Positions 55,323 through 58,046 of a stretch of DNA of 64,000 bases are shown here, piece by piece. The position numbers and the translations under genes are program-made. This DNA comes from Thermococcus chitonophagus (GTDB lineage Archaea > Methanobacteriota_B > Thermococci > Thermococcales > Thermococcaceae). The stretch is from positions 1,778,978 through 1,842,977 of the forward strand of contig NZ_CP015193.1 in NCBI RefSeq assembly GCF_002214605.1. Reading direction: 5' to 3'. Position 1 is the first letter of the stretch. Each line of letters opens with the position of its first letter. The notes below the pieces were generated by a model. That model saw only the letters and a list, made by a program, of their open reading frames with translations. It was not told the origin of the DNA and ran no database searches.

Positions 55323-55504
55323 TATTAAGCACCATTGCTTACCTATATAAGATAGTTAAAATATTTTGCTCAGCCATCGCAGATATCATCACCAACTCAG
55401 AGACGCCACCCTTCTTCATCGCGTTTTAATGTACCATGTCTGAATTAAAAAGGATTTCTACAAGAAGTGTTTAAGATTTCAAAGCCAAGAAAAAAGGTAT
55501 TTTC

Positions 55505-55582
55505 TGGCGGACCGGCGGGGATTTGAACCCCGGACCTGCGGCTTAGGAGGCCGCCGCCCTATCCTGGCTAGGCTACCGGTCC
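55505..55582 (-). tRNA. tRNA-Arg (anticodon CCT)
   Basis: On the minus strand the acceptor GGACCGG pairs with CCGGTCC, followed by G and CCA (55505-55507 is the CCA complement). The anticodon stem-loop is GCGGC-CTCCTAA-GCCGC, giving anticodon CCU for AGG codons. The T arm is GGTTCAAATCC. A TATA-like CTTTAAATAATTAATC (about 55606-55620) lies 26-38 bases upstream, and a T-run follows. Confidence 0.96.
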
Positions 55583-55637
55583 ACTGCCCGCTAGTTCATC
55601 AATGAGATTAATTATTTAAAGTTTACGGTCAGGAAAC

Positions 55638-55671
55638 GTTTAAACTATTCTCACCCCATCCCAGAGGGGTG
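55638..55671 (+). promoter_or_regulatory. thyX promoter and ribosome binding site
   Basis: TATA-like GTTTAAACTA (55638-55647) precedes GAGGGGTGG (55663-55671), which is five bases before the thyX ATG at 55677. Confidence 0.5.
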
Positions 55672-55676
55672 GTCAA

Positions 55677-57305
55677 ATGATCAAAGTCAAGCTCGTAAAC
55701 TACACTCCAAAACCACTCGAAACCATAACCTGGGCCGCCCTCATAAGCTATTGGGAGGAGTGGACAACTGAGTCTTTTGAGAAAATAGGAATGAATGACG
55801 TCGAGAGGCACCTCCCAAGGGTTTTGGGGTATGGTCACGAAAGCATTTTGGAGCACGCAACTTTCACCTTTGCGATAGAAGGATGCTCGAGAGTCTGTAC
55901 CCATCAGCTGGTCAGGCATAGGATTGCAAGCTACACCCAACAGAGCCAGAGGTATCAATTCGTTTCTTCCGTGAAGCTAAAGGAGTACAAGCTCCCCAAA
56001 CCCTCAGGAGAGAAGAGGAATCCGCACTGTAAGCTCAGCATAAATCAAGAGAAGGAGATCGTTAGATGGTACCTTGAGGACGGTCTCTCATTATGGCAGA
56101 TAGCAAAGATAACTGGACTCCACCCTGCTTCTGTTCTCTCGATACTTCGGGCGTATGGTGTTACCCCCCAAAAAGCAGCGGAAGTGTACAATGGTAAAAT
56201 CGTGAATGAGAATTTCTTTAAAGATATAAATGACCCAGACAAGGCTTACCTCCTCGGTTTCATAATGGCAGCTGGCGACATCGATGAAGCAAAGAACGCC
56301 CTCATACTTGACAAGAAAAACTTTGAAAATACTCTCTTAATGGAGATAGCAGAACGCATTGGACGTGGGGCAAAGATAAGGGCTCAAAAGGACAAAAATA
56401 TCGTTTGGATTTGGGTTGGAAACAGAAAGCTGATTGAAGACCTCAAAAAGTGGGGGGTTTCTGAAAAGGATAAAAGAACCCTAAATAAGGTTATTAGGGA
56501 AATCACTAAGGATCTCTGGCCACACTTTCTTAGGGGTTACTTAGACGGGAATGGGTATATCAGGGTTATTTTCAAAGATGGAACTTTTCAAGGAGTGGAG
56601 GTAACGTTCATTAGCCCGAGCAAAAAAGTCCTTGAAGACCTCGCGCTCATGCTCTCTGAACTGGGGCTTCCGGAAGGTGAACTAAAATACCATGAAACTC
56701 AAGGAAACTGGTACCTCCGCTACACCAAGAGCAGTAGTTCCGAAGACCTATTGAGACTTCTGTACAAGAGCGTTGATCCTCTCCTTACGAGGAGAAGCAA
56801 CATACTGAAGGCCCTAACAGTTGTTCCAGAGCTCAGGGAGAGAATAAAAGCCTCTATACTCAGAAGACTTGAAGAGTATGAATTCACGATCCCCGAAAGC
56901 GTTTTAGAAGATCCATTTTTAGCATACAAGTGGTATGATCTTATGAGAGATGCCAGGGAGCTCTACATTGAGTCCGTTCAGGCAGGAACTCCAAAGGAAG
57001 ACGCGCGTTTCATTCTCCCTCAGGCCGTTAAAACCAAAATCGTGGTCACGATGAACTTAAGGGAGCTCAAGCATTTCTTCGGGTTGAGACTCTGTGAGAG
57101 GGCCCAGTGGGAAATTAGGGAAGTGGCGTGGAAGATGCTGGAAGAGCTCGCAAAGAGGGAGGACATAAGGCCAATAATAAAGTGGGCAAAACTCGGGCCA
57201 AGATGCATCCAGCTCGGCTACTGTCCGGAGAGAGAGTTAATGCCCCTAGGTTGCTTCCAGAGGACAAAGGAGAAGTGGAACAAACTTTTAGATCTTACTA
57301 AATAA
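55677..57305 (+). CDS. thyX: Flavin-dependent thymidylate synthase ThyX with an internal LAGLIDADG domain
   Basis: 542 residues, against about 220-250 for usual ThyX. Residues 1-93 are the N-terminal part through the signature [17 protein letters not shown] (77-93). Residues from about 401 onward (YEFTIPES...DARFILPQ...[16 protein letters not shown]) are the C-terminal part, so the ThyX portion totals about 235 residues and looks complete. Residues about 94-400 form an in-frame insertion with an HTH and a two-motif LAGLIDADG domain. ThyX makes dTMP from dUMP with FAD and methylene-THF. How the enzyme works with the insertion is unknown. There is no frameshift or stop. Confidence 0.93.
55956..56876 (+). 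mobile_element. In-frame LAGLIDADG homing-endonuclease-like insertion in thyX
   Basis: Codons 94-400. An N-terminal segment is followed by an HTH (about 132-162, [21 protein letters not shown]). LAGLIDADG motif 1 is [11 protein letters not shown] (191-201) and motif 2 is [11 protein letters not shown] (284-294), then a basic region. The canonical catalytic acidic positions are Ala199 and Asn292, so nuclease activity is doubtful. There is no Cys/Ser/Thr at the left junction, no TxxH block B and no His-Asn+Cys/Ser/Thr at the right, so standard intein splicing is not expected. TATCAATTC (55953-55961) and TATGAATTC (56877-56885) flank it. Confidence 0.8.
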
Positions 57306-57446
57306 AGTATAAAACATTCGGATTGTTACTTTTTTGTTACCTTTATCAGTCATTCATTTTCAAGAATCTTTTAAGTTATGTCTATCTGACTAACTTATGT
57401 GGAAAAAGCTTTTATTCATTATATTCCATTAAGAAGTGGTGACATT

Positions 57447-58046
57447 ATGGAGGATCTCAGCGATATCAGTAAGCCATCAAGAGATAACTATAAGGATCAA
57501 AATGATCCTCTCGATCCAGTTATCTCAAGATGGCATGAAATTATGGAAACAACGAACCCAAGGTTAGTGGGGAGTTTAGACCTAGAAAATGGAAGAATCG
57601 AGTATTTTGAAGTAATTGAAGATGCAACAGCAGAGAACATCATTCTCCATGAAAGTTCAACGATATACTTTTCAATAAAGATTAAGCCTCCTCAGGTTCC
57701 AGAAGACGTAATTATCCAGCTTCTAGACGTGGCTCTTGAAAACCCAATAAAGCATTTCCGAGATCCAAAGAGAGTTCTCGAATTTATAGTGGCAGGTAAC
57801 GATTTTTCTACGATATTTGACGTGTATTTTACCCTAAAGGGAGCATATCCCCTGTACTCAGGTAACATCTCAGATATCGGAAACCTGCTCCTAATGATAT
57901 CCCAGCTATCTGGAGAGTACTACATCTCAGGGATTTCATTTGATGGAACAAGCTACTTTAGGGTAGTATTGAACTCGGGCATGATAAGAGCCTATAGGGC
58001 TAGGGGGAAGGAAACGCTACTTTTTGTGAAGATATGGAAGCTTTAA
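57447..58046 (+). CDS. Hypothetical protein downstream of thyX
   Basis: 199 residues, acidic N-terminus (MEDLSDISKPSRDN), mixed alpha/beta, no membrane segment or known motif. The ATG at 57447 follows GTGGTGA and is preferred to one at 57399 because a TATA-like AGCTTTTATTC (about 57405-57415) lies between. No function is proposed. Confidence 0.72.
   Translation: MEDLSDISKPSRDNYKDQNDPLDPVISRWHEIMETTNPRLVGSLDLENGRIEYFEVIEDATAENIILHESSTIYFSIKIKPPQVPEDVIIQLLDVALENPIKHFRDPKRVLEFIVAGNDFSTIFDVYFTLKGAYPLYSGNISDIGNLLLMISQLSGEYYISGISFDGTSYFRVVLNSGMIRAYRARGKETLLFVKIWKL

Follow-up and report, generated by a model that had tools for sequence, protein, structure and literature searches.

A probably unspliced LAGLIDADG homing endonuclease domain inside the thymidylate synthase ThyX of Thermococcus chitonophagus

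The window analysed here (64,000 nt of the Thermococcus chitonophagus contig NZ_CP015193.1) contains at 55677–57305 on the plus strand a composite gene of 542 codons and a stop, in which the thymidylate synthase ThyX and a long insert are read as a single frame without internal stops. The Pfam family Thy1 matches the encoded protein in two stretches that flank the insert (E = 1.5e-61) and TIGR02170 is likewise divided in two; a LAGLIDADG_3 match (Pfam, E = 1.1e-8) lies between the Thy1 stretches, and a match to HTH_23 is weak. With both the Thy1 domain and the RHRxxSxxxxSxRY motif present, the host protein belongs to ThyX. A first-pass annotation of this DNA had proposed that the ThyX frame is interrupted directly after the SQRY motif and then resumes, and the two Thy1 stretches on either side of the insert bear this out: Tyr93 is the last residue shared with insert-free proteins before the break, and similarity to ThyX is found again from about residues 398–403. 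The insert occupies a variable loop located 3′ of the SQRY motif. The same annotation counted 308 extra codons; the insertion is indeed long, but about ten of these codons replace the native loop, and because insert-free homologues are mostly 241–248 aa in length (244 aa in the non-carrier genome G010), the net insertion is around 298 codons. On the opposite strand, a tRNA-Arg (CCT) gene (55505–55582) immediately precedes thyX.

Along the plus strand, the gene can be divided into an N-terminal ThyX part that ends in the substrate-binding motif (residues 1–93, 55677–55955), delimited by the fold and by alignment with insert-free homologues, and an N-linker without a conserved internal start codon (residues 94–121, 55956–56039). 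These are followed by a putative HTH DNA-binding segment (residues ~122–160, 56040–56156), assigned from three helices in the insert fold, the weak HTH_23 match and an alignment with phage HTH segments, and by a two-motif LAGLIDADG domain (residues ~180–372, 56214–56792), assigned from LAGLIDADG_3 and from comparison of the predicted fold with the PDB. Motif 1, LLGFIMAAG (56250–56276), has Ala199 and motif 2, LRGYLDGNG (56529–56555), has Asn292 in place of the catalytic Asp. A C-linker that is mainly helix and is largely missing in the phage relatives (residues 373–401, 56793–56879) leads to a ThyX segment of the carrier type (residues 402–440, 56880–56996), which genome comparisons described below mark as a co-conversion tract, and finally to the C-terminal ThyX part (residues 441–542, 56997–57302), defined by the Thy1 match and by alignment.

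What kind of protein is the insert? Endonucleases of Twort-like Staphylococcus phages, one of them flanked by pieces of a split recombinase gene, and endonucleases from many viral contigs align with its core (residues ~122–376) across the HTH and both LAGLIDADG motifs. The core also matches PHROG 4645 'endonuclease' with an E value of 3.6e-35. Structure predictions were made separately for the full protein and for the insert, because a combined ThyX and endonuclease alignment misaligned the endonucleases, and the carriers from the genome search were left out of them. With a mean pLDDT of 83.5, the insert is predicted to fold into an HTH and a LAGLIDADG domain containing both motifs. In the PDB this fold is matched best by I-Tsp061I, an archaeal intron-encoded endonuclease, and also by I-DmoI and others. 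Pfam, the phage alignment and the predicted fold thus agree with the HTH and two-motif LAGLIDADG domain recognised in the first-pass annotation. The full-length 542-residue model is confident for the ThyX parts only; these are mostly confident, with an average pLDDT of 80–95 in ten-residue blocks up to residue 90, and they match several ThyX structures, TM0449 among them. By alignment and predicted fold, phage endonucleases of the intron-encoded and free-standing kinds are homologues of the insert core. The Twort-like phage HTH-LAGLIDADG enzymes and I-Tsp061I have the LAGLIDADG fold in common with it, and the phage enzymes have the same domain order in an alignment that spans the entire core. 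Unlike the in-frame ThyX insert, however, these enzymes are free-standing or lie in introns, and identity is ~25% or less.

The insert is present at the identical ThyX site in 8 of the 94 genomes searched in the family (G000, which is the window genome, G006, G008, G021, G022, G041, G055 and G061). We regard a chance origin of the interrupted frame as excluded, because the same insert recurs in the same place in these genomes. A tree of the ThyX flanks, built without the insert and without the replaced downstream segment, needs 8 changes to account for the 8 carriers (shuffled labels average 7.2), and its starred branches by themselves force 4. Between G021 and G061 the dS of the insert is 0.19, compared with 1.36 and 1.07 in the ThyX flanks; this low value, together with the changes required by the flank tree, indicates that the insert is a homing element. 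Further evidence comes from carriers paired with non-carriers. G021 and its insert-free near neighbour G024 are 84–100% identical in windows of the N-terminal ThyX part and 91–100% identical in windows from residue 436 onward, and yet only 47–64% identical between SQRY and residue ~440. The same pattern is seen between G006 and the non-carrier G010, where the tract extends a few codons further. A divergent tract embedded in near-identical flanking DNA is what homing with co-conversion would leave, and these comparisons indicate that the insert and ~39 downstream ThyX codons have recently moved between species as one unit. Both horizontal spread into insert-free alleles and flank co-conversion are therefore seen for this element. 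A search of species genomes for relatives of the insert returned just two records, both from carriers already counted, one search of viral contigs gave no match, and a phylum search with the carrier-type downstream segment found no insert-free ThyX as close as those of the carriers.

The copies differ in the state of their endonuclease. Both catalytic acids are intact in G021, G061, G055, G041, G022 and the translated pieces of G006. In the window copy they are replaced by Ala199 and Asn292. Where motif 1 of the window copy has Ala199, nearly all phage relatives and six other carriers read ADG; Asn at the motif 2 position also occurs in two viral relatives. Because both catalytic acids are lost, the window endonuclease is probably a dead passenger domain. 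The copy in G008 (locus L007) is the most diverged insert: it has Arg and Ala in place of the two catalytic acids, eight whole-codon gaps and an open frame, and is possibly an old domesticated passenger. The window copy has one gap inside the insert, again of a whole codon, and its frame is also still open. In a neutral-stop simulation the frame would have stayed open by chance with a probability of 4–16% for the window copy and 10% for G008, which makes the open frames weak evidence.

How, then, is ThyX made from an interrupted gene? One possibility is an RNA intron of the bulge-helix-bulge (BHB) type, whose endonuclease frame would be continuous with both exons and which would be excised by EndA. 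The tRNA-splicing endonuclease EndA is present, the closest solved relative of the insert, I-Tsp061I, is intron-encoded, and archaeal rRNA introns often encode such endonucleases, with mRNA introns in cbf5 known as well (PMC2738675). A BHB-like junction pairing that would yield SQRYQFTIPESV is complete in 3 of the 8 carriers, in a scan run without a tRNA-intron positive control. In the other carriers, however, this pairing is incomplete, and strict and relaxed scans found no position that is strict in all carriers, the candidates being unconserved and at chance level: synonymous shuffles yield as many strict BHB sites in 17–23% of draws. The first-pass option of an RNA intron thus retains this partial pairing, which falls within the shuffles, and gains no positive support from the sequence. 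As for group I or group II introns, no Rfam intron family is matched over 55400–57500 at E values up to 1, and no conserved catalytic RNA core is found. The linkers vary at 24/24 (N-linker) and 26/28 (C-linker) third codon positions, compared with 8/24 and 15/28 second positions, which indicates constraint at the protein level. Moreover, excision would remove ~10 residues of a ThyX loop that is present in insert-free homologues, all eight copies read through into the 3′ exon although an intron endonuclease need not do so, and the known archaeal mRNA introns are crenarchaeal and depend on a relaxed heteromeric enzyme (PMC2738675). Taken together, the observations speak against an RNA intron, and we consider this explanation unlikely.

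A special case is the copy in G006 (L008). Here the insert has a 1-base deletion in a T run, which splits the gene into overlapping ORFs of 273 and 290 aa; ThyA and thymidine kinase were looked for in this genome and neither was found. This frameshift may be a sequencing error, reflect a two-piece enzyme or be a sign of RNA splicing, to which it would do no harm; if it is real and the enzyme is active, this genome would have to rely either on RNA splicing or on an enzyme of two pieces. More generally, the polypeptide might be cut in the linkers, or be made as two pieces as in G006, with the ThyX halves associating unligated. The split in G006 falls within the endonuclease, and there are precedents in the split gp43 of phage 25 and in the NrdA of phage Aeh1, which is split by an endonuclease insertion yet fully functional (PMC2988022). 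Against this, in 7 of the 8 carriers a single frame runs unbroken across the two junctions, and a conserved internal start is not evident. We would give a cleaved or two-piece enzyme only about one chance in nine as a general explanation. In G021 and G061, whose motifs are intact, no in-frame ATG, GTG or TTG occurs between residues 74 and 175, and for this reason the ThyX fusion is probably the sole form in which the endonuclease and its HTH are produced.

The conserved active-site position, the in-frame endonuclease and the patchy horizontal spread all resemble inteins, and ThyX inteins are known in Trichodesmium (PMC3620165) and in a mycobacteriophage (PMC5050341). Profile searches with Pfam and further libraries found no intein family in the window protein, and in the carriers tested the single exception was the G022 endonuclease, which matches endonuclease stretches of intein-containing models. 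The same profiles readily detect an archaeal-virus ThyX intein used as a positive control (Intein_splicing, E = 1.1e-13, together with intein_Nterm and intein_Cterm), in agreement with the earlier remark that blocks A, B, F and G could not be found here. Since ~30 residues remain on each side of the endonuclease core, there is no room for a Hint domain, and the junctions show no Cys or Ser at the start, no His-Asn at the end and no Cys, Ser or Thr after it. The structure prediction and the intein and LAGLIDADG profile searches proposed with the first-pass annotation revealed no Hint fold, the insert being accounted for by its HTH and LAGLIDADG domain. An intein that is diverged, as was then considered among the options, or non-canonical, and yet excises itself, has in consequence become very unlikely. 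The virus example (L053:1399-2883, ThyX of the Methanomassiliicoccales virus vir335), annotated merely as thymidylate synthase, contains an intein that shows both splicing blocks as well as an HNH-like match. Like the Trichodesmium and mycobacteriophage inteins it is a mobile ThyX insertion, and like the present insert it lies near the active-site motif, but its break is seven residues upstream of the Tyr93 position and, as in the other ThyX inteins, it has the splicing domains that the present insert lacks at detectable level.

Could the insert simply have inactivated ThyX, thymidylate being obtained in another way? The window ThyX is the only one in a single-contig genome of 1.96 Mb, ThyA was found neither in this genome nor in any other carrier genome, and thymidine kinase has no match in the carriers of the window's genus, the window genome included. 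The composite ThyX is thus the only recognised thymidylate source of the window genome. Thymidine kinase is present in the carriers of genus g3 and absent from four tested genomes of the window's genus (g1). The g3 kinase is what inactivation has in its favour; the lack of ThyA and thymidine kinase matches in the window genome, and the strong constraint that persists among carriers on both conserved ThyX parts, whose active-site motifs are intact, leave it highly improbable.

We therefore favour, with a probability of about 0.68, a homing endonuclease that is not spliced out and stays in ThyX as an internal domain. Among the options considered in the first-pass annotation, an endonuclease tolerated inside the enzyme fits best with a continuous frame that bears no intein or known intron signature. 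An HTH and two-motif LAGLIDADG homing endonuclease would have entered the loop after SQRY in frame with ThyX; the composite would be translated as one polypeptide from which the insert is not removed. ThyX would fold from its N- and C-terminal parts round the insert, and the endonuclease would form a domain of its own, tethered by the two short linkers. The sequence itself shows the continuous frame, the movement between species, the co-conversion tract and the sole ThyX; that splicing is absent and that the long ThyX is active is inferred. Copies with intact acids would presumably cut thyX alleles that lack the insert. With the carrier allele as the template for repair, the insert and ~40 downstream ThyX codons would be copied in, which would make the new allele resistant. 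In the window genome, the frame of the passenger domain would stay open since the downstream ThyX part is needed. More tentatively, at somewhat less than even odds, the element could represent a class of homing elements that do not need splicing: they would persist in an essential cellular enzyme as a folded internal domain, take a resistant stretch of host gene along as they spread between species, and be able to decay to a dead retained domain or, perhaps in G006, to a two-piece enzyme joined by endonuclease halves.

Why would such an arrangement matter? The survival of mobile endonucleases in essential genes is attributed to the introns or inteins in which they ride and which remove themselves. 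If our reading is true, a mobile in-frame copy kept beside the ThyX active site implies that splicing is not required for persistence, ThyX would be naturally bifunctional and offer a ready test of domain insertion, and decay after homing would be visible in active-looking, dead and split copies. The ThyX insert appears unspliced, unlike the known self-splicing intruders in this gene. In the literature searched, which included few subscription journals, we found no report of an unspliced carrier in archaeal ThyX, as the first-pass annotation had supposed, and none of a cellular thymidylate synthase with a LAGLIDADG homing domain within its reading frame.

Several known systems share part of these features. 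In fungal mitochondrial rps3 a LAGLIDADG coding sequence is also fused in frame to a host gene (PMC7902536), but this is an intron-encoded ribosomal protein gene, whereas in ThyX an enzyme is interrupted mid-sequence, next to the active site. The WHO elements at yeast FBA1 home without protein splicing and likewise replace the downstream host segment with a resistant version, although WHO genes adjoin their target instead of lying within its reading frame (PMC7282813). The closest concept is the ShiLan domain of actinobacteriophage DNA methylases, which is thought to remain in the protein (PMC11855218). Like the ThyX insert, it is in frame, free of stops and horizontally mobile and interrupts a conserved enzyme, and neither an intein nor an intron can be detected, splicing being judged for the ThyX insert from its sequence. 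The two differ in that the ShiLan endonuclease is of the HNH type and is encoded in another reading frame, the in-frame peptide having no recognisable endonuclease fold, whereas the LAGLIDADG endonuclease of the ThyX insert is in frame with its host, and in that the ShiLan host is a phage methylase whereas ThyX is an essential gene of a cellular organism.
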